Positions 2,815 through 24,559 of a stretch of 41,699 bases of DNA are shown piece by piece. Each line of letters opens with the position of its first letter. The stretch's first letter is position 1. This DNA comes from a virus. The stretch covers positions 1 through 41,699 of the IMG/VR virus record IMGVR_UViG_3300033150_002278; one strand, 5' to 3'. The translations under genes and the position numbers were made by a program. Below the pieces are notes generated by a model that worked only from the letters and a program-made list of their open reading frames with translations, searched no databases and was not told where the DNA came from.

Positions 2815-3171
2815 ATGGAACGGGTGGAACGGTATGATTCTGCAGGACAGAACCTGTTGAACCGTGAGGTTGCAATAATCGGTATCGTTACAACTGCGAC
2901 CATATCAAACGTTATGACTATGAACCGTGGAAAGCATCCGGCCGGCTCGTGGATGGACGTAAGCCCGGCTGAACACATCAGAGCGGCCGCACGACACATT
3001 ATGCGTTGGATGAACGGGGTTCATGAGTCGGACGGGGAATACCACTTGGACAACGCGCTGTGCCGGCTGGCAATGGCAGCCACGGTCAACCTGATTGACC
3101 CGGTGCTCGCAACGTTGGTAAAAGACCAAATTGAAGGAGAATACGAGGATGAGTTTGATGACGGGACCTAA
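2815..3171 (+). CDS. DUF5664-like protein (dATP/dGTP diphosphohydrolase N-terminal-like)
   Basis: The 118-residue protein contains PAEHIRAAARHIMRWMNG followed by an acidic ESDGEYHLDNALCRLAMAA segment. This is the pattern of DUF5664 proteins: two helices with H/R and D/E residues that recall nucleotide hydrolase folds. The annotation dATP/dGTP diphosphohydrolase is used for relatives, mainly by homology; here the reaction is unproven. GGGAGG lies 6 bases upstream of the ATG. Its end overlaps the polymerase gene by 23 bases, placing it in the replication operon, where a nucleotide-pool role would fit. Confidence 0.6.
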   Translation: MERVERYDSAGQNLLNREVAIIGIVTTATISNVMTMNRGKHPAGSWMDVSPAEHIRAAARHIMRWMNGVHESDGEYHLDNALCRLAMAATVNLIDPVLATLVKDQIEGEYEDEFDDGT

Positions 3172-5419
3172 GTGCGAAGAGTGTACGTTGGACAGGGCAA
3201 AGTTCGTACCGCCACAGATACCGGATTACGCTCAGCATCCCATCCTCTTCGTGGGGCAGGCGCCCGGAAAGGTTGAGGTTACGACCGGTATTCCGTTCAC
3301 GGGACCGGCTGGCCGTATGTTATTTAGGCTGATGAGTGACGCCGGTCTGAATAAGAAGTATGCGAACATTACGAACGCTGTGATGTGTATGCCGCCCGGC
3401 GACAGGCGACCGACTCCTGAGGAGCTGGCATGCTGTCGTCCCATATTGGCCGACGTCATCCGGCGGGTTCGACCTAAGGTTATCGTTGCATTGGGGTTGC
3501 CCGCTCTTGAGGCGCTGACCATCCGGGGTTTCGCACAGCCAATGGAGCAGTTGCGCGGCACCGTCTTCAAGTTGAACGAGCTGTTCGGGCACGATTGCCC
3601 CGTTTTGGTTACGTATCACCCTGCATTCGTAATGCGGCAACGCCAATGGATTGAGATTGTCGTAAACGACTTACGCAAGGCCGTGGCAATAGCGCGTGGC
3701 GATTCGGTGTCCGTCGGCGATGAGTGGAATCCGAACATGATTCTAAATCCGTCACCGACATTTTTGGCCGACTGGCTGGGTCGGTCATTCGACGGAGCGA
3801 CCGTCGTCTTCGACATTGAAACTACCGGGCTGAACCCGTTTGAGGACAAGATTCTGGGAATTGCGTACTGTTACAGCGGTAGTGAGGCAGTTGCCATAAC
3901 CTTCGACCCGGACGTGAAGGACGAGCGGTTTGAAGTTGTTCGCCGGTTTCAGGAGGACCCGCATGTACGTAAATGTGCCCAGAACGCATCATTCGACGTG
4001 TCCTTCCTGGATATGGCCGGCATACGGACGGAAGGCATCGCCTGGGACACGCGCTGCGCTGAGACCGTGCTACATCCCGACCTGCCCAAAGACCTGCAAA
4101 GTATGCGGACTCTCTATACAACGATTCCTCCGTATAAGCCTACCAAACGCGAGATGGCTATGATTTCGTCGATGCCGGAACCGCGTGTCCTCGAAATGGC
4201 GTGCTGGGACGTGATTACAACGTGGGCCGTTATGGAAGAGCAGCGCCGAATGATGGGCGAAACTGAACTCAAACTGATGAATGACTTGCTCATACCACTC
4301 ATCGAACCGTTGTGGCGCATGCAAAAAGTCGGCGTCCGCGTTGACGTACCGCTCCTTGCAGTCATCTACAAACGTGAGTTGCCGAAGGTCGTCGAAATCG
4401 AACATGAATTCATGTCGGAGGTGGGCATAAATCCGGCATCACCGGCGCAGATATGCGAGCGCTTCGGGTTGAGGAACTCGACGGAGGAATTACTCAAAGC
4501 GGAGATTCGACGGTTGCATCCAGACGCGAAGTGGTTTGAAAAAATATTGACGTACCGCAAAAAGCGGTTTGTGTTGGACACCGTACTCCGTGGTGTGTAC
4601 GACAGACTGATTGGTGACCGAGTTCATACGTCCTTCCTTCTTGAGGGCACGGCAACCGGCAGGCTCGCGAGCAGAAATCCTAACCTGCAGAATATACCAC
4701 GCTGGCTGCGGCAGATTTTCATTCCGGACGACCCGGAGCGGTACTGGTTCTGTGAGGCCGACTTCAAACAACAAGAGCTGAGGGTTGGGGCGCTGCTCGC
4801 ACCGGAGCCGACGTTGCTCAATGAGCTTGAAACCGGTAAGAGCGTGTATAAAACGCTCCACCGTGAGATATTCGGTAGCCCGGAAGGGCGCGACCCATTT
4901 CAGGTCGAGCGTGAGATAACGCAGACGAAGGGCGTTGTGTTTGGAACGTTGTATGGCCGCACAGCGCGTTCCATTGCGATGGAATTCGGCGTTCCAGTTG
5001 CAGTTGCGGAGAGGTGGCAGGCAATCTGTATTAACCGATTTCCCGGCCTGCTCGAATATAAGCGCAGGTGTGAAAGGGATGCCTTAGGAAAGGGATATGT
5101 CCAAACCCCGTTCGGTCGTAAGCGGTATGTAACGACGCTGACGCAGGCGTATAATACACCCATTCAATCTACGTCTGCTGACGTGGGTTTAACGGCTTTG
5201 TTACGAGTGTACCGTGCCGGGTTCGACCTCAGGCTGACGGTATACGATTCGCTTTTGGTACAACTGCCGAAGGGCGACTTGGAGGCAGTGAGGGAGTTTA
5301 AGAAAACGTGCGAACAACCGATTGAACAGCTTGGCGGCTATGGATTCGCGGTCGACGTGAAGGTCGGCAAAAGTTGGGGCGAGCACGACCTGGAGAAGCT
5401 GGACTTGGACAATGGATGA
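3149..5419 (+). CDS. Uracil-DNA glycosylase / family A DNA polymerase fusion
   Basis: One 756-residue protein joins three modules. Residues 1-185 are a family-4 uracil-DNA glycosylase: Cys9 and Cys12, Cys80 (MCMPPGDRRPTPEE) and a Cys at 95-96 match the four Fe-S ligands, with GQAPG (36-40) and YHPAFVMR (156-163) as active-site motifs. Residues from about 215 form a 3'-5' exonuclease with FDIETTG (221-227), NASFD and WDVITTW. The polymerase follows, with GRLASRNPNLQNIPRW, motif A DFKQQELR (about 535), motif B KGVVFGTLYG (about 593) and motif C as VYDS (about 697) rather than VHDE. The start follows GAAGGAGA at 8 bases. It is the replicative polymerase with a built-in uracil-binding or repair module. 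The usual GEAPG acid is Gln here, so glycosylase activity is uncertain. Confidence 0.93.
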   Translation: MSLMTGPKCEECTLDRAKFVPPQIPDYAQHPILFVGQAPGKVEVTTGIPFTGPAGRMLFRLMSDAGLNKKYANITNAVMCMPPGDRRPTPEELACCRPILADVIRRVRPKVIVALGLPALEALTIRGFAQPMEQLRGTVFKLNELFGHDCPVLVTYHPAFVMRQRQWIEIVVNDLRKAVAIARGDSVSVGDEWNPNMILNPSPTFLADWLGRSFDGATVVFDIETTGLNPFEDKILGIAYCYSGSEAVAITFDPDVKDERFEVVRRFQEDPHVRKCAQNASFDVSFLDMAGIRTEGIAWDTRCAETVLHPDLPKDLQSMRTLYTTIPPYKPTKREMAMISSMPEPRVLEMACWDVITTWAVMEEQRRMMGETELKLMNDLLIPLIEPLWRMQKVGVRVDVPLLAVIYKRELPKVVEIEHEFMSEVGINPASPAQICERFGLRNSTEELLKAEIRRLHPDAKWFEKILTYRKKRFVLDTVLRGVYDRLIGDRVHTSFLLEGTATGRLASRNPNLQNIPRWLRQIFIPDDPERYWFCEADFKQQELRVGALLAPEPTLLNELETGKSVYKTLHREIFGSPEGRDPFQVEREITQTKGVVFGTLYGRTARSIAMEFGVPVAVAERWQAICINRFPGLLEYKRRCERDALGKGYVQTPFGRKRYVTTLTQAYNTPIQSTSADVGLTALLRVYRAGFDLRLTVYDSLLVQLPKGDLEAVREFKKTCEQPIEQLGGYGFAVDVKVGKSWGEHDLEKLDLDNG

Positions 5420-6629
5420 CAGGGACGCAATCCGGGAGTTTTTGCCCCAAACGGGCTGGCTCGCGGACTACATTCGGTTGACGGACGGAGTCGCAGCATG
5501 TCCGCGATTCCGATTTTTCAGCGCTGCCTGCGTGGTGGGCGCGGCTGTAAATAACAAAGTGTGGATAACGCGCGGGACGACGGGCTCGCTACTCCCGCCG
5601 CTGTTCCCGAACCCTTGGGTAATTCTTCTCGCACCGCCTGGCCGTGGGTACAAAACGTCCACGATAAACATGGCCGTGAACATTCTGAAGGCAGCATGCC
5701 CCGAGGCAAGGGTGCTGAGCGACCGAATTACGCCTGAAGCGATAACGCAGGCACTCAGCGAACCAAAGACTCCGAAGGAGATGATTCGTATCGGGCCGCG
5801 CGATGCCACCGGTCTCATCAAAGCACCTGAGCTCAGCGTGTTCTTCGGTAAGCAACAGTACAACGCATCGCTAATTTCATTGATAACCGACCTGTATGAT
5901 TATAGAGAAACGTGGCGTAGTGAGACCATTGCTCGTGGCAGGGACATCCTACGCAACGTGTGCATTTCAATCATCGGTGGCTCAACTCCGGCTTGGCTTC
6001 AGTCCATGTTGCCACACGATGCATTTACGGGCGGCTTCATGTCGAGGTTTATTCTCGTTGAGATGCCGCCCACATATTACAAGCGGGTAGCGTTCCCCGT
6101 TGAGCCCGACAAGAAGGAGTGGGGCGAACTGGTTAATCGGTTGTCAATGATTGGGCGAATACGCGGTGAGATGACGTGGGCTGATGAAGTAGCACGAAGG
6201 CGATACCGGGATATGTACGAATCGTACGTTCCGACCGGGGATGAACAGATTGATGCATACAGGGAGCGCGAAACCGAACAGATTCTGCGCATTGCGATGT
6301 TGATAGCGTTGACGAACGATAGGATGACTGTGTCGGTTGAGGACCTGAACACGGCAAACAACTTGATTCGACTACTTGAGCGGGAGACCTCGCCGAGAAT
6401 TGAGCGGTTGGGAACGCATCCGCGGATGGAGTTGGTACAGCGCATTTGCGACATTCTGAGAATGCACGGTGAACTGAGTGAGGCAGACCTGCTGCGGATG
6501 GTATATCGGTCCCTTACTTATGGCGAAGCTCAGTTTTACGAAGCCCTTGGGATACTACGCAAAACTGGGATGATAACCGTAAACGGGCGTCCAGGTGCAT
6601 GGCGCTTCAGTTTGAGGGAAAGGCGATGA
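5412..6629 (+). CDS. DUF3987-like replication ATPase/helicase-like protein
   Basis: The 405-residue protein has a P-loop-like APPGRGYKTST at about residues 74-84, with one residue more than a standard Walker A between PPG and KT. A long segment SIIGGSTPAWLQSMLPHDAF and GGFMSRFILVEMPP is typical of DUF3987 proteins, which replace or accompany helicase-primase genes in phages. The C-terminus (about 340-400) reads as a winged-helix (LRMHGELSEADLLRMVY). It overlaps the polymerase gene by 8 bases. A role as replicative helicase or loader is inferred from position; ATPase activity depends on whether the odd P-loop works. Confidence 0.7.
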   Translation: MDDRDAIREFLPQTGWLADYIRLTDGVAACPRFRFFSAACVVGAAVNNKVWITRGTTGSLLPPLFPNPWVILLAPPGRGYKTSTINMAVNILKAACPEARVLSDRITPEAITQALSEPKTPKEMIRIGPRDATGLIKAPELSVFFGKQQYNASLISLITDLYDYRETWRSETIARGRDILRNVCISIIGGSTPAWLQSMLPHDAFTGGFMSRFILVEMPPTYYKRVAFPVEPDKKEWGELVNRLSMIGRIRGEMTWADEVARRRYRDMYESYVPTGDEQIDAYRERETEQILRIAMLIALTNDRMTVSVEDLNTANNLIRLLERETSPRIERLGTHPRMELVQRICDILRMHGELSEADLLRMVYRSLTYGEAQFYEALGILRKTGMITVNGRPGAWRFSLRERR

Positions 6630-7048
6630 TTGACATCGAAGCCGTTCGCAGAAAGTTGGCGGACATGTACGGTGAGGACGGCTCCTTCGCGGAGCTGTTT
6701 GAACGTGCGTATTGGCAGTTTACGAATGCGGAGCTTGCGCGGACACTGGGAGTTTCGGAGTTTTGGATTAGAGAGAAGGTCAGGGCGCTCGGAGTGAAGC
6801 GTAAAATGCGTGGCAGGCACAGTGGTAGAATTTTCTTCACTGAGGACGAATTCAAGATTTACGGTCCGCGTGAGCTTGCCCTGAGATTTGCAACGACTCC
6901 GCAGTACATCCGAAAGAAGGCCCGCAGACTGGGATTTACGGGTTCGGATGATACAACCGTCGAATGTCCTCACGGTACCGCTCAATCACCTTTCGCCGCT
7001 CTTCGGGTGAAGTCGCCCGACGAAGGTCGCGACGAAACTGACTGCTAA
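6626..7048 (+). CDS. Double helix-turn-helix DNA-binding protein
   Basis: The 140-residue protein shows two helix-turn-helix units: FTNAELARTLGVSEFWIREK with KVRALGVKRKMRG (about 32-62), and PRELALRFATTPQYIRKKA with RRLGF (about 77-102). Both end in a basic R-x-LG-F/V tail, so the units look like an internal duplication. A sequence-specific DNA-binding or transcription role is likely. ATG 6626 overlaps the previous stop as ATGA, with AGGGAAAGG upstream; an in-frame ATG at 6599 lies inside the previous gene. The last about 36 residues lie antisense to the end of the large virion gene and look non-conserved. Confidence 0.7.
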   Translation: MIDIEAVRRKLADMYGEDGSFAELFERAYWQFTNAELARTLGVSEFWIREKVRALGVKRKMRGRHSGRIFFTEDEFKIYGPRELALRFATTPQYIRKKARRLGFTGSDDTTVECPHGTAQSPFAALRVKSPDEGRDETDC

Positions 7049-10000
7049 TTTCCTGCTCGTAAATCTTCTCTACAGCAATCGCCCGCCTGCGCAAGGCCGT
7101 CCTGTCAATTGGGGTGACACGGAAGCCCATTTGTGATGCGAGAACCTCCATTGGGGTCTGCGCATCTGGACGGCCTGCCAGCATGTCTTCTGCTAACTTC
7201 CAATCCACTCCACCCGGCGCAGGAGCCGGAGCCCACCACTTCCACAGGAATGATAGTGCCTTCGCAGCTTTAGTCGTCGGTTTCTCCCACTCGTACCAAA
7301 TAGGAGCGCCCACCTCACTGTGGCGCGTCAACAGAGCTGCGGCCCCGCCTACGATGGGTGACTGTACGAAAAGGCCCCAGGGATTCGTAACACCGCGCTG
7401 GTATAATTCGGCAATATCGCCGATTCCCGGGATCATCCACGTCAGGTTAAGGAGACGGATACGTCCTTTCTCATCCCTGAACGGAACCAGCAGCCACAGG
7501 CCCGACTGCATGTGTTTGGGGAGATCCTGCTTGATTGCTTGCCACTCGGTCTCGGATAGCCCGTTTGTTTCAAGAGCGTATGCCATTATGGCTTCACCGA
7601 AGGCCACCCACTTTGCAACCCTGAGCGGATGTTTGACGCATGTTTCGATGAAGAGAGGAATGGACTTAGTCCACCACGTAAAGAATGGGACGCCCAACAC
7701 GTGGCTGCGGACCGCGGCGACCAAGGGTGTAACTTCACCGTAGTTGAACGTCCATTTCATTGCATCCACTACCGCGTCGTGTTTGGTCATTCCGCGTTCA
7801 AGGTTGTGGATGTACTTTGAAAGTTTTGCCCACGTTTCCATTGCGCTGTAAATGCCACGCGCCGGATGAGTGAAGGTATCGTACAGGCGTCCCAACTTAT
7901 CGAAAATGTTCTCGCCGTGCTGCGCCGTTCGCACAAATTCGGCAAGCTCGGCGTCACTGAACCGACCGGAGCGACCGCCCAACTCAATGAATTCACGGTA
8001 CAGCGGCGACTTACTATACATTTCGCGGAGTGCTTTGTTGTAGACGTCCAGGCGGTAGAAGGGCAGCCCGCCGAAATCGTTCAGTATGATGTTTGAGTAC
8101 AGATTCCGCGCCCAAGCAGAGGGTCGCAGAAGAACTTTGTTAACCTTCCACCGCGAGATGAACATTCGTGTGTACGTCCGTCTTGCGTAGCGGGGCAGTT
8201 GCTTGATTGCATCTAACTCAAGCTCGACATCCCTGTGCACATACAGGCCCCGGAATTGCGGATGTTTGGAGAAAACGAACCCTTCGCGCGGTTTCAATGA
8301 AACGAGCAGTCCCTCCCTCAACATTTCCGACGAAATGTAGTCGAGCATCCCTTTGGTGGACGCACGGCGGACGGCCGACGGAAACGTCGCCGGCAGATTG
8401 TAGAGGTGCAACAGGTACTTTTTGACCGGTTCGGGAGTGAGGGGATTACGAATTTCCTCAGAGATTAACTTAAGGGCCTTCTTCGTGTCAGAGCCGGCTG
8501 CCTCACGCAGTTTGTCAACAACGCGGTCAACGATTGCCTTCGCCGTTTCAAACGCCCGCTCCGCACTCTCCTCTTCCGGAAACATTGCGGCCAAGTTCTC
8601 GAGCGGACCTGTGATGAACTTGTGCAATTCGTTTGTGAGTGCAGAACGGTACACGAACTCGGGATCGCGCCCTGCACCTGCCGACGCAAATAGTTGTATG
8701 TCATTCAGAGCGGCCTCAACGCGTGGAGTCACATCGCCCCTGATACCACTTTGCAACGATTTGATAAGTTGGTGACGCTCAGTCGGATTCAACTCTTTGA
8801 GCTTGCGCGACAGTTCAGCGGCTATCTCACCGGTAGTGTACCGCAGTGATTGACCGATGTCAAATATACGGCCTACTGGTGGAGTGTGTCGCCGTATCCG
8901 TTCGACACCGCGCTGAAACAGCTCACGCGTGGTCTTATCGGTCAGTGGCAGCCGGACGTCGACGATGAGTGTGGCCTTGTCCCACAGCTTGTTCGCGATG
9001 GGCGCCCAGTACTTGTCCGAGAGATGGCGAAGCGGGCGGGACACTGCAACGTCGGTCGCGCGCATCAGACCTTTCGCAGTTTTACCCACTGCTCTACCTG
9101 TGAGGGACAGGGCCGGCGGAAACAGTCCCCACGCCAGCGCTTCATGTGCAATTCTCTCGCGTGGTGTAAGCCTGGCTTCGTCGCCCTCAAATTCAACCAA
9201 GCCCAACGAATGCAGCAGCTCGCGCTCGGTCTGGAACAGAGCGCCCGAAACAAATGCTTCGGCCGTCAGCATTGGCAGTGAACGGGCAAGGATATTCAAA
9301 GCATGCAGACCGAAACGGCTCAACAGCATCCGTGTGCCAGCGTGGACAATGCCGCCCGTACCAAATGCGAGAGCCCACTCGGGCAGTGAAAGTCCGAGAA
9401 TGCGCGGGCCCAGACCTTTCTCCTCTGCCGAACGAACCAACTCCGTCTCGAGTTCGCCCAGCTCAAAGGGAGTGTCCGGTCGCACGCCGTAGCGTTCTGA
9501 GATGTATTCCTCAAGCCGGCGCTGCACTTCCTCCTGCTTCTCGGTTCCCCATGCGGCTTCAGCAGTACCGGCCGTTGCACCGAGGGCAGCACCGGTAACA
9601 AGGCCCGCGCCAGTCAGGAGTTCCACTGGAATACCTCGCTCAGCGGCCTCCTCCTGCAGTTTCTTGAGACTCTCTTCGAACGGGGGCCAACCCCTGGCCT
9701 TTCTTTCGGCTTGTAAGAACTCCAATTCTCGGAGAGCCCGATCGTACTTCTTGGACCAGGCAAGAAACTCAGGGTTGTCAGCAAGCTGTTTCGGGTCTGC
9801 GGTGTTTACACCTTTGGCCTCCAGTCTTTCGATTAACTCCTCACCCTCGTCTTCCAGCTTTTTGATGACGTTCTTCCAGTACTCTTCCGAGACGAACGCA
9901 CTGGCATCAACCTCAACCTTCTTAATACGAGCCCCGCTTGTGGTCAAGTAGTGGTCAGGGTGATGCTCAACAACGTCCACGGGATCCCAGTGCTCGATGT

Positions 10001-11324
10001 GGAGGCGAATCGGATAGTCCCAACCCTCAGTTCTGCTGATACTGCTACCTCTCTTCAGCCCTGACTTCAGAATTTGGCGGGCCTCCTCTGGGTCAAGTAC
10101 CCCATGTATGAACTTCCTCATTCCTGAGATTCTTAACGGAGTTTTTGCCTCCGCTTTGTCAGGGGCCAGCGTACTGAGGGCAGCACCGGTAGCGAGGCCT
10201 GCACCACCGATTATCTTCCAATACGGTCCGTATTTGGCAAGGACGTTGCCCGGCTTGAGTTGAATCAATTCGCCAAGGCGGGCCAGAAAATCGTAGTCAG
10301 TGAGGTCACGTCCGGTCATCGCCGTAGCAATCTTCGCGCCCGGCCGCGTTACTCCCACGATTGTCCGAGTGCCGTACCTGTGATACGGTGGTAGGAATGA
10401 GAGGTCGTCGATTTCCGGGCAGGTCGCCCAGTACAGTCCGGGCACATCGCGTGTAGCGGCCTCGTCTGCATACCCAAGCTCTCTCCACATACCCTCGGGC
10501 AAGCCGTGCTTCTGAAAGTGGCGCACCTGCTCGGGAGTAAACCCGCGTTCAATCAACATGTCTTCGACGAAACCTGTGAAGGGACCTCTGCGCGGAGGAA
10601 TGAACCCAGTCTGCATCAACGTTTTGGGGTCCGTCGTAACGCGCATAACCCTACCGAACGCTCCCTCGCTCGGATGCCAGGAGTCAATGCGTTGGTAGGC
10701 CCAACCTACGTTGTTGAGTATTTCCTCAAGCGCGCTCTTGTCAATGTCGTGGAGTTTTCCTGAGAATGCACGCCTAAGCACGCGGGCGACCGGCCGTTCG
10801 GGGAGTGGGCCGGCTTCGGCCGGCGTGGGTCCGATGAATTCACCAACCTTTTCGCCCAGCCATTCAATGAACGATGGCGTGTGTTCACCCCATCCACTCT
10901 TCCCGGACTGCTCCGCGCCCTGCGTCTCCCCCAGCAATGAGCGCGCGAGACGAATGCGTTTTTCGTAGTTGGGTTTGCCTGGTCGCTCGTAATGCCGGGC
11001 GAATAGGACTGTGGCTTCCTCCGGCGTGCCCGCCCGTTGGAGTAGTTCGAACGCACGGCGTTCATCGGTCTGCAATTCATGGAGGACGAAATCCAGTTGG
11101 GTGTCCAACGCCTTCCAGTCCCGTTTTGTGTTGCGGGCAAACTGCCGGAGTTTGGCAAGCCGTGGACCACGCCACTGAGCTACGCCGAATGCGGTGCCCT
11201 TATCGCCGACAGCCATTGGGTCGAGCTGCGATTCAGCGAGGAGGTTTGCAACGATACCGGTGGCAACGTGCGAGGGCAAACCGCGTTGTTCAAAATATCT
11301 GATGACCTCAGCCGGAGTAGACAT
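6936..11324 (-). CDS. Giant internal virion protein with N-terminal lysozyme domain
   Basis: The 1,462-residue protein is the last gene of the leftward virion unit, the place of T7 gene 16. Residues 1-135 fit the phage tail lysozyme fold: GIVANLLAESQLDP, with its Glu (about 31) as likely catalytic acid, then AFGVAQW and LDTQLDFVLHEL. The middle has two Gly/Ala-rich hydrophobic segments with a shared AGLxTGAAL motif, each before an AEA end, and a basic C-terminal half (FISRWKVNKVLLRPSAWARN and later helices). It is probably ejected with the DNA, cuts peptidoglycan locally and forms part of the transfer channel. ATG 11324 follows GAGGAG at 5 bases and shares one base with the previous stop. The 3' end overlaps the rightward HTH gene by 113 bases. 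Confidence 0.88.
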   Translation of the reverse strand: MSTPAEVIRYFEQRGLPSHVATGIVANLLAESQLDPMAVGDKGTAFGVAQWRGPRLAKLRQFARNTKRDWKALDTQLDFVLHELQTDERRAFELLQRAGTPEEATVLFARHYERPGKPNYEKRIRLARSLLGETQGAEQSGKSGWGEHTPSFIEWLGEKVGEFIGPTPAEAGPLPERPVARVLRRAFSGKLHDIDKSALEEILNNVGWAYQRIDSWHPSEGAFGRVMRVTTDPKTLMQTGFIPPRRGPFTGFVEDMLIERGFTPEQVRHFQKHGLPEGMWRELGYADEAATRDVPGLYWATCPEIDDLSFLPPYHRYGTRTIVGVTRPGAKIATAMTGRDLTDYDFLARLGELIQLKPGNVLAKYGPYWKIIGGAGLATGAALSTLAPDKAEAKTPLRISGMRKFIHGVLDPEEARQILKSGLKRGSSISRTEGWDYPIRLHIEHWDPVDVVEHHPDHYLTTSGARIKKVEVDASAFVSEEYWKNVIKKLEDEGEELIERLEAKGVNTADPKQLADNPEFLAWSKKYDRALRELEFLQAERKARGWPPFEESLKKLQEEAAERGIPVELLTGAGLVTGAALGATAGTAEAAWGTEKQEEVQRRLEEYISERYGVRPDTPFELGELETELVRSAEEKGLGPRILGLSLPEWALAFGTGGIVHAGTRMLLSRFGLHALNILARSLPMLTAEAFVSGALFQTERELLHSLGLVEFEGDEARLTPRERIAHEALAWGLFPPALSLTGRAVGKTAKGLMRATDVAVSRPLRHLSDKYWAPIANKLWDKATLIVDVRLPLTDKTTRELFQRGVERIRRHTPPVGRIFDIGQSLRYTTGEIAAELSRKLKELNPTERHQLIKSLQSGIRGDVTPRVEAALNDIQLFASAGAGRDPEFVYRSALTNELHKFITGPLENLAAMFPEEESAERAFETAKAIVDRVVDKLREAAGSDTKKALKLISEEIRNPLTPEPVKKYLLHLYNLPATFPSAVRRASTKGMLDYISSEMLREGLLVSLKPREGFVFSKHPQFRGLYVHRDVELELDAIKQLPRYARRTYTRMFISRWKVNKVLLRPSAWARNLYSNIILNDFGGLPFYRLDVYNKALREMYSKSPLYREFIELGGRSGRFSDAELAEFVRTAQHGENIFDKLGRLYDTFTHPARGIYSAMETWAKLSKYIHNLERGMTKHDAVVDAMKWTFNYGEVTPLVAAVRSHVLGVPFFTWWTKSIPLFIETCVKHPLRVAKWVAFGEAIMAYALETNGLSETEWQAIKQDLPKHMQSGLWLLVPFRDEKGRIRLLNLTWMIPGIGDIAELYQRGVTNPWGLFVQSPIVGGAAALLTRHSEVGAPIWYEWEKPTTKAAKALSFLWKWWAPAPAPGGVDWKLAEDMLAGRPDAQTPMEVLASQMGFRVTPIDRTALRRRAIAVEKIYEQEISSQFRRDLRRATSPEERRKVIERYREDIRRLYHPNP

Positions 11325-12154
11325 CACTGCTCCTCAACTATGCGTAACATACGCTCAAGAACTTCGGCGACCTGCGGGTTCCTACGTTTGAACTCCGTGG
11401 GGTTAGCGTACCACTTGCGAAAGCAGAAGACGTAGTAGTCCTTTGGGAACGGATACATCTTCCGGATATTGCCGTGTGCAAAGTTGAGTAGATTGCGCCA
11501 CACCTTCGTCAATTCGCGTGTACTGCCGAAGCCCTCGGCGGCGGACTTCCAAATACTCTCGGCAACCGCAGCCTGTTTGATAACTTCCTCAGTTTTCGGG
11601 CGCACAGTCTCGCCATGCTCCTGACGGAGGTATTTGACGAGTGGCACGCGAATGTCCTCGGGAAGGATTCCGCGTCTTTCGGCCGCTCTGGCGGCACGCT
11701 CGGCCTCCTCACTTCGCCTGACCGTCCGTACTGTCCGCTGAAGGCCGGCCGGCAACCTAAACGGGCGTAGCTTAATTCGTTCGTATGCAATGCCTCGCGC
11801 TGCCTCCTCGCCCATCGGTTGTTTGCCAAGCATTGGCTCAACACCGACGCGCCGTATTTCCGTACTTGGAACGGAATACTCGGCAACGTACTTCTCGGGT
11901 TCGGATACGTAGCGGGACAGAGCTTCATCGTAGTCCAATAACAACGGGCGCAAATAGTATTCAGCCGGGGATGACGGATCAAGGTAGTGTTTTTCGAACA
12001 AACGCGTTAACGTTCTTTCGACTGGCGGCTCATATCGTTCGAGAATTTCCGTCGCTGCCTTATCCGTAAGACTACCTTCGCGCTGCAAAATCCGTTTTAC
12101 GATTTGTGCCCACTGCTTCCGCGTTAGTCGAAGTAAGGGACGAATTGGCGGCAT
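11324..12154 (-). CDS. Putative internal virion protein (276 aa)
   Basis: A 276-residue, helical and strongly charged protein (many Arg and Glu, for example RRSEEAERAARAAERRG in the middle). No family was recognised. It lies between two internal-virion-type genes in the leftward unit and is coupled to the giant virion gene through a one-base stop/start overlap, so a role inside the capsid or in DNA ejection is likely by context. The start follows GAGGAG, which lies within the end of the preceding gene. Confidence 0.75.
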   Translation of the reverse strand: MPPIRPLLRLTRKQWAQIVKRILQREGSLTDKAATEILERYEPPVERTLTRLFEKHYLDPSSPAEYYLRPLLLDYDEALSRYVSEPEKYVAEYSVPSTEIRRVGVEPMLGKQPMGEEAARGIAYERIKLRPFRLPAGLQRTVRTVRRSEEAERAARAAERRGILPEDIRVPLVKYLRQEHGETVRPKTEEVIKQAAVAESIWKSAAEGFGSTRELTKVWRNLLNFAHGNIRKMYPFPKDYYVFCFRKWYANPTEFKRRNPQVAEVLERMLRIVEEQ

Positions 12155-23468: not shown

Positions 23469-23636
23469 CTACTTCCCCCGTCTCACTTGAAAGGCAATGG
23501 CGACCGCCATCTTCCTGGCTTTAGCCAACGATTTGGGATGTGCTCTACCAATCGTACCTTTCCTCTTGTAACTCCTTATTAACTCTGCCACGTTTTTCTC
23601 GAAGGCCTCTTTGGTCCTCTCCTTAATTAAAGGCAT
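23469..23636 (-). CDS. Small basic protein with AHPKSLAKA motif (55 aa)
   Basis: A 55-residue ORF reads MPLIKERTKEAFEKNVAELI, then RSYKRKGTIGRAHPKSLAKA and RKMAVAIAFQVRRGK. Small phage proteins of this pattern (K-x2-AFExNV, then AVAIA near the C-terminus) are common beside structural genes and have no assigned function. It is below a 60-codon cutoff but fits exactly between the radical SAM gene (10-base overlap) and the next start (2-base gap). GGATG-type upstream bases give only a weak ribosome site, so coupling is likely. Confidence 0.75.
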   Translation of the reverse strand: MPLIKERTKEAFEKNVAELIRSYKRKGTIGRAHPKSLAKARKMAVAIAFQVRRGK

Positions 23637-24559
23637 CCGTACCTCTCCTTCAACCCCTCAAAGATTTGCCCCGGCTCTATCCGCCTCCCGACGTAAACCG
23701 GCGTGCAGAACTTCTGCTCGTTCAGAACAAGGTAAATACCATACCTCGCAGCAACTCGCTGGCGATACCCCATATCCTTGTAAGCCGCCATCTCTTGAGG
23801 TCTTTCCACCATCTTCAAGTCCGAAATGACGAACTTACCCCGCTTCAACTTCTTCGACCGCCAGTGCAATGCATCAAACATTCCTGGGGAAATGTCGTCC
23901 CTGCCATCAGTCGACCTCCTACGGGGCAGCGGTAGTGCACAACCACACTTCGGACACCACCGTTCAACCTGTTCGGTAAAATCCTTCGGCGTCCTAGCCC
24001 ACCAGTACGGCTCCACAGGCCACCCGCCCGGACCACCAAACAACAAATCCAGCGCTGCGGCAACCTCACAGAAGAATGCACCCTTCGGGTTGATGCTGGC
24101 CGACCAATTGTTCTGTAGCCAGCAGTGGTCAATCAAATAAAACATCTTACGCCTATCGGGCACAACCTCTTCCGCAGCGACCAGAACGGGACAGTGGTAA
24201 ACATCGTCCCTGGTGTGGTCATTGATAAAGATATGCCCGAAGGTATCGCAGATTAGCCTTGCATAGTGTTCATACCCTTTCGGAAGGGATGTCCACAATC
24301 CCAACCTTCCAGGCTCAATCTTCGAGGAAGCGTACTTGCAGATTTCCTCAAACTGGGGATGCAGCAGGGGCTCGCCACCCATAATCCCCGTCATCTTGGG
24401 GTACTCGACCATAGTGTCCAGCGCCCGCCTAAACTCGTCCAGGGACATAAAGTAAGGCTTCTCATGGTGCCCGCAGAACCTGGTGCAGTTGCTACACGAG
24501 TTCATACAAGCGTTGGTGACCTCAATCTGGATGGTGTCCATGTCCAACAGAGCTCGCAT
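23627..24559 (-). CDS. Radical SAM protein
   Basis: The 310-residue protein has the radical SAM Cx3Cx2C cluster at Cys18, Cys22 and Cys25 (NACMNSCSNC), which binds the 4Fe-4S cluster that splits S-adenosylmethionine, and the GGEP motif in GIMGGEPLLHP near 61-64. Extra cysteines (CEVAAAL and WCPKCGCALP) could hold a second, SPASM-like cluster. It begins 1 base after the glycosyltransferase stop (TAAATG), so the two are co-translated. The substrate is not known. A joint modification of a virion protein or surface glycan is one guess. Confidence 0.88.
   Translation of the reverse strand: MRALLDMDTIQIEVTNACMNSCSNCTRFCGHHEKPYFMSLDEFRRALDTMVEYPKMTGIMGGEPLLHPQFEEICKYASSKIEPGRLGLWTSLPKGYEHYARLICDTFGHIFINDHTRDDVYHCPVLVAAEEVVPDRRKMFYLIDHCWLQNNWSASINPKGAFFCEVAAALDLLFGGPGGWPVEPYWWARTPKDFTEQVERWCPKCGCALPLPRRRSTDGRDDISPGMFDALHWRSKKLKRGKFVISDLKMVERPQEMAAYKDMGYRQRVAARYGIYLVLNEQKFCTPVYVGRRIEPGQIFEGLKERYGCL

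Follow-up and report, generated by a model that had tools for sequence, protein, structure and literature searches.

Background

The gp205 protein of Pseudomonas phage PaBG combines an N-terminal uracil-DNA glycosylase (UDG), a 3'-5' exonuclease and a polymerase (PMC7412058). This three-domain order, which is also that of the protein described here, recurs in the polymerases of the Lupandier group and of SPO1-type, Gordonia, Serratia, and Brevundimonas phages. A structure has been solved for the family-A polymerase of phage phiLo with a modified template (PDB 9QHS), whose N-terminal part matched our UDG domain (sequence E 2.6e-13; Foldseek E 8e-10; Z 17.4). The phiLo polymerase is larger (1142 aa) and shares 28-29% identity over the UDG. 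No description of this structure was found in the open-access literature searched. Likewise, no biochemical study of a phage UDG-polymerase fusion was found in open-access literature, with most subscription journals falling outside the search.

The UDGs of poxviruses (D4) and herpesviruses (UNG) belong to another UDG family, the family 1 type. These are separate proteins of eukaryotic viruses, whereas the UDG studied here is fused to its polymerase. They are alike in that the glycosylase is physically part of the viral replication machinery (PMC10253040; PMC5934625).

Relatives of the domain itself include the family 4 enzymes (UDGa), for which we use the residue numbering of Tth UDGa (PMC5387724). 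Substitution of the motif 1 glutamate in this enzyme (E41Q) lowered k2/Km 888-fold and abolished measurable binding of uracil-containing DNA (U-DNA). Substitution of the motif 3 asparagine (N89A) lowered k2 several-fold, and N89 was proposed to position the attacking water. In contrast, H155S left Km nearly unchanged while k2 fell more than 1000-fold (PMC5387724). In UdgX, the equivalent of E41 is Glu52, which activates the nucleophile (PMC10359453).

A three-domain polymerase encoded by a single frame

The viral contig analyzed here over its full 41.7 kb (the window) is that of a tailed-phage type and carries genes for terminase, portal, major head, and tape-measure proteins. A single uninterrupted frame on the + strand (3149-5419; ATG at 3149, TGA at 5419) encodes a protein of 756 aa, and GAGG precedes its start codon. 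All positions given below for this gene refer to the same strand. The family-4-type UDG domain comprises residues 9-182 (3173-3694), with PF03167 matching residues 29-166 (1e-28). It is followed by a DEDD 3'-5' exonuclease domain, with the Pfam match at 3776-4114 (DNA_pol_A_exo1, PF01612, residues 210-322, 1.3e-7), and a family-A polymerase domain at 4499-5383 (DNA_pol_A, PF00476, residues 451-745, 2e-48). Against the family 4 model TIGR00758 (UDG_fam4), the UDG domain scored 119 bits, just under the curated cut-off of 125.3.

Structure prediction and alignment, proposed as a check in an earlier note made from the sequence of this DNA, supported the domain assignments. AlphaFold2 modeled the whole fusion from 29 sequences with a pLDDT of 92.1 and a pTM of 0.89, and the Klenow fragment (1kfs) matched residues 192-749 of this model at Z 37.1. 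The first 189 residues, modeled separately (pLDDT 94.2), matched family 4 UDGs at Z 23-25, including Z 24-25 for T. maritima TM0511 (1vk2, 25.1) and Tth UDGa (1ui0, 24.2). The enzyme of Sulfolobus tokodaii shares this fold as well.

Relatives and distribution of the fusion

A single-protein search of viral contigs returned no relatives; these were instead located through degenerate DNA motif searches. The same protein was found at 40-42% identity over ~740 aa in six contigs (L013, L016, L017, L018, L023, and L025). As L017 and L023 scored alike, we counted five distinct relatives, plus a partial one in L012. Gene order around the fusion was kept in the relatives' contigs. The earlier note had described a UDG fused to an exonuclease and a family-A polymerase, and named a sequencing error joining two genes as one finding that would overturn this. 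The fusion was confirmed by the single frame, the three Pfam domains, and relatives of the same architecture. A sequencing error or frameshift was ruled out because independent contigs at 40-42% identity share both the fused architecture and the gene neighborhood.

Fusion of a UDG to PolA is ordinary and widespread among phages. Motif searches of viral contigs found it in 16 of 18 GQAPG proteins (that of the window included) and in 78 of the 120 GEAPG proteins examined. Isolated phages with such fusions include an SPO1-like phage and phages of Gordonia, Serratia, Yersinia, and Brevundimonas. None of the isolates was close to the window, the best full-length matches sharing 25-28% identity. The annotation of phage ctLwi270 (L004:1727-4364) has one gene for the UDG-exonuclease portion followed by another for the polymerase, which is possibly a natural split of the fusion.

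Active site of the glycosylase domain

The UDG domain retains most of the residues expected of family 4. As the earlier note had stated, the four Fe-S-type cysteines are all present in the alignments: C9 and C12 (3173-3184), C80 (3386-3388), and C95/C96 (3431-3436). The equivalents of Tth E47, F54, N80, and H155 are Glu43, Phe50, Asn76, and His157. Of these, Asn76 (3374-3376) corresponds to the residue contacting uracil N3/O4 and His157 (3617-3619) to the stabilizer of the leaving group. The fold, the cysteines, the uracil-contact Asn, and the motif 2 His are as in family 4.

Two positions depart from the family. Motif 1 reads GQAPG (residues 36-40, 3254-3268) rather than the consensus GE(A/G)PG, so that Gln37 takes the place of Tth Glu41. 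In motif 3, Asp85 (3401-3403) stands at the water-positioning Asn89. Other phage fusions carry GEAPG with Asn, or degraded pockets, whereas the clade of the window combines GQAPG with the motif 3 Asp. Within the glycosylase, the earlier note had reported the Glu-to-Gln change of motif 1. The Gln is indeed present, but it does not stand alone; its companion Asp85 had been overlooked.

The fold is also shared with UdgX (Z up to 24.1), whose GEQPG is another variant of the family 4 motif 1. However, its Gln occupies the residue after the Glu, while that of the window replaces the Glu itself. UdgX is further defined by a KRRIH R-loop with the nucleophilic His109; the loop after motif 3 in the window reads PPGDRRPT and lacks both the KRRIH sequence and the nucleophilic His.

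Coupled exchange of motif 1 and motif 3

The two departures occur together. Among fused phage proteins, Asp was found at position 89 in 17 of 18 with Q-A in motif 1 (the Q-type sequences having been sought by pattern), but in only 1 of 34 with E-A, a sample taken among the matches listed. It was likewise found in 1 of 25 with Q-N. Because the loop contains insertions, a conserved Pro lying three residues further along served to fix position 89, an anchor chosen after the loops had been seen. Cellular GQAPG proteins showed the same association, with Asp at position 89 in 97 of 108.

When only the polymerase portion was used for tree building (FastTree, with long branches), the Q-A-D combination appeared in about six separate clades. 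On this polymerase-domain tree, a model of dependent evolution was favored over independence (LR 24.3, 4 df, p 7e-5). A strict test on independent pairs, of which too few were informative for adequate power, gave a non-significant 3.2 against 0.7 pairs with a median p of 0.375.

Exceptions were also observed. Asp was absent from five motif 1 Gln proteins with an adjacent Ala or Gly, and Micrarchaeota GQAPG proteins carry Asn at the motif 3 position. In other Q lineages, the residue after the motif 1 Gln is Asn, Ser, or Cys (e.g. GQNPG and GQSPG). These lineages fit a model in which the lost Glu would usually be made up elsewhere. Gln37 looks to be compensated by Asp85, as part of a recurrent coupled exchange of E/N for Q/D. 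The fusion itself was already known; as far as could be found within the open-access literature searched, the coupled Gln/Asp form is an undescribed variant. No report of an Asp at position 89 rescuing E41Q was found in the same literature.

In a large stand-alone cellular GQAPG group (L257-L372) from Verrucomicrobia, Gammaproteobacteria, Chloroflexi, and Myxococcales, the uracil-contact Asn80 is replaced by Ala or Ser, and motif 3 contains a conserved GDR. We also considered GQAPG as a signature of polymerase-fused sensors. This was rejected because the motif is common in stand-alone cellular proteins, while GEAPG is kept in many fusions.

Selection on the glycosylase domain

The UDG domain of the window clade is under purifying selection. 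In this clade of ~40% identity, the UDG is the best conserved domain, at 48-54% between the window and the others, compared with 38-47% for the exonuclease and 41-43% for the palm and fingers. Four-fold synonymous sites are near saturation in the same clade. Apart from the two motif changes, the uracil pocket residues and the cysteines are invariant. Across 141 non-redundant fused proteins, Asn80 was kept in 136 and His155 in 137, both residues lying outside the patterns used for searching.

Eroded pockets were seen in four isolated phages: Gordonia phage Cleo, the SPO1-like phage, Serratia phage Serbin, and Yersinia phage P744. Some phages can thus retain the domain as a shell, which is not the case for the window clade. 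The fused UDGs with eroded pockets (L005:3031-5388, L006:1926-4700, L007:2953-5571, and L008:2983-5586) occur in the SPO1-like phage and in phages whose adjacent genes (for a thymidylate synthase, a pyrimidine HMase, a dUTPase or a dCMP deaminase) hint at an altered pyrimidine metabolism. Erosion of the pocket may go along with uracil-type bases in phage DNA. Such pyrimidine genes are also present in L003, which nonetheless keeps GEAPG.

Proposed function

With a probability of about 0.5, we favor a reading of the domain as a family-4-type uracil glycosylase, kept by selection on a replicative PolA, that removes uracil using a rearranged Gln37/Asp85 water-handling pair. We infer catalytic activity, a chemical role for Asp85, and action at the fork. 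Uracil arising from deamination or dUTP misincorporation would be removed from the DNA handled by the phage replisome, with the polymerase tether putting the glycosylase beside the replicative polymerase. Asn76 would read the uracil and His157 would stabilize the departing uracilate. With the canonical Glu of motif 1 and Asn of motif 3 exchanged for Gln37 and Asp85, the carboxylate that positions or activates the attacking water would be supplied by motif 3 rather than motif 1. Repair during synthesis, one of the roles suggested in the earlier note, appears compatible with the sequence. It is somewhat short of an even bet that phage polymerase-fused glycosylases have repeatedly swapped the motif 1 carboxylate and the motif 3 amide to give a working enzyme with an undescribed catalytic configuration. 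The coupled pair offers a clean hypothesis for separating repair enzyme, sensor, and tether, and would enrich the correlated-mutation network of the UDG superfamily with a solution that is natural and recurrent.

The domain could instead serve mainly as a tether, with the UDG fold holding the polymerase on DNA and catalysis being secondary. In vaccinia virus, D4 acts as a processivity factor as well as a UDG (PMC10253040; PMC1936997), and in gammaherpesviruses UNG forms a structural part of the replisome (PMC5934625). Fusions that lack a uracil pocket (L005, L006, L007, and L008) still keep the domain, and no sliding clamp was recognized among the window genes searched. We nevertheless regard this reading as rather unlikely, as a pure tether would not need a pocket, and the pocket is invariant in the window clade.

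A sensing role, proposed in the earlier note, is rather unlikely. Here the domain, running in front of the polymerase, would bind uracil in the template but leave it uncut and stall synthesis, amounting to read-ahead through a UDG fold. The tether to the polymerase, the loss of the motif 1 Glu, and the retained uracil-contact residues speak for such a role. Binding alone could also help, as an abasic site would result if uracil were cleaved from a single-stranded template. The earlier note had likened this to archaeal read-ahead sensing, which is similarly a polymerase-linked response to template uracil. The archaeal response, however, resides in the family-B polymerase and involves no UDG domain (PMC8596578). 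The Gln had also been suggested as a change that may turn the domain into a sensor that binds without cleaving. However, since Tth E41Q loses U-DNA binding along with catalysis, Gln at this position is not an expected route to such a sensor. By analogy with the Tth mutants, binding without cleavage would rather resemble loss of His155, whose substitution spares Km (PMC5387724); the window retains this residue as His157. The pairing of Gln37 with Asp85 suggests compensation, not loss.

It is improbable that the Gln/Asp form has shifted from uracil to another base, e.g. a modified phage or host pyrimidine. For Brig3, a glycosylase acting on a modified phage base, divergence from the UDG superfamily has been proposed (PMC13160076), and cellular GQAPG proteins also have position 80 changed to Ala or Ser. 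In the window, however, Asn76, Phe50, and Glu43 are kept, and their equivalents define the fit of uracil in Tth UDGa (PMC5387724). An inactive, drifting relic is very improbable: two motif residues do depart from canonical family 4, and Gordonia phage Cleo has a truly degenerate copy, but in the window clade this is the best conserved domain despite near-saturated synonymous sites, with the other pocket residues and the cysteines invariant.

Polymerase and exonuclease residues

The polymerase portion carries motif A as DFKQQELR (residues 538-545, 4760-4783) and motif C as VYDS (residues 698-701, 5240-5251). These letters, like GQAPG, read in the translation as the earlier note had given them. 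That note had regarded both polymerase motifs as altered; they proved to be mostly typical of the clade. Four close relatives have VHDS as motif C and the fifth has VHDE, VHDS/VHDA is common in phage PolA, and motif A DFKQ is common to the window and L016. Only Tyr699, replacing the motif C His of most relatives, is peculiar to the window; the Ser is not. The case for VYDS as a sign of altered polymerase chemistry was accordingly weakened, given the frequency of VHDS in relatives and the retention of the catalytic Asp.

The catalytic Asp pair and the O-helix Lys that define family A (Asp538, Asp700, and Lys594) are invariant over an alignment of 29 fused proteins, and D538, K594, Y602, and D700 are all kept in the window. 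Ile590 stands at the R754-like position, where most relatives have a fingers Arg or Lys. In the exonuclease, D222, E224, and D283 are kept, as is D354 further on. Met350 occupies the position of the DEDDy Tyr, and L016 has Phe there. Judged from these residues, there is no reason to suppose that the polymerase would be inactive. Met350 (4196-4198), Ile590 (4916-4918), and Tyr699 (5243-5245) were seen solely in this contig.

Gene neighborhood

The polymerase gene is part of a replication module. Its conserved neighbors, all on the + strand and identified by profile match and synteny, encode a Sak4-like recombinase (698-1465; phrog_124), a PD-(D/E)XK (Cas4-like) exonuclease (1462-2319; PF12705), and, downstream, a DUF3987 primase/helicase-like protein (5412-6629). 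An ATP-dependent ligase gene lies close to the right end of the contig. Neither a dUTPase nor an AP endonuclease was recognized among the window genes searched.

Other genes were observed in the window. A small gene overlapping the polymerase start (2815-3171, +) matches PF18909, the dATP/dGTP diphosphohydrolase N-terminal family, at 31.4 bits, and possibly encodes a nucleotide-pool enzyme. A stand-alone TSCPD-domain protein (358-789, +; PF12637, 8e-16) has a weak match to large subunits of ribonucleotide reductase, at their end. A weakly radical-SAM-like gene (23627-24559, -; phrog_13987) sits amid lysis and head genes, and a tape-measure-like protein of 1463 aa (6936-11327, -) bears an N-terminal tail lysozyme domain (PF18013).
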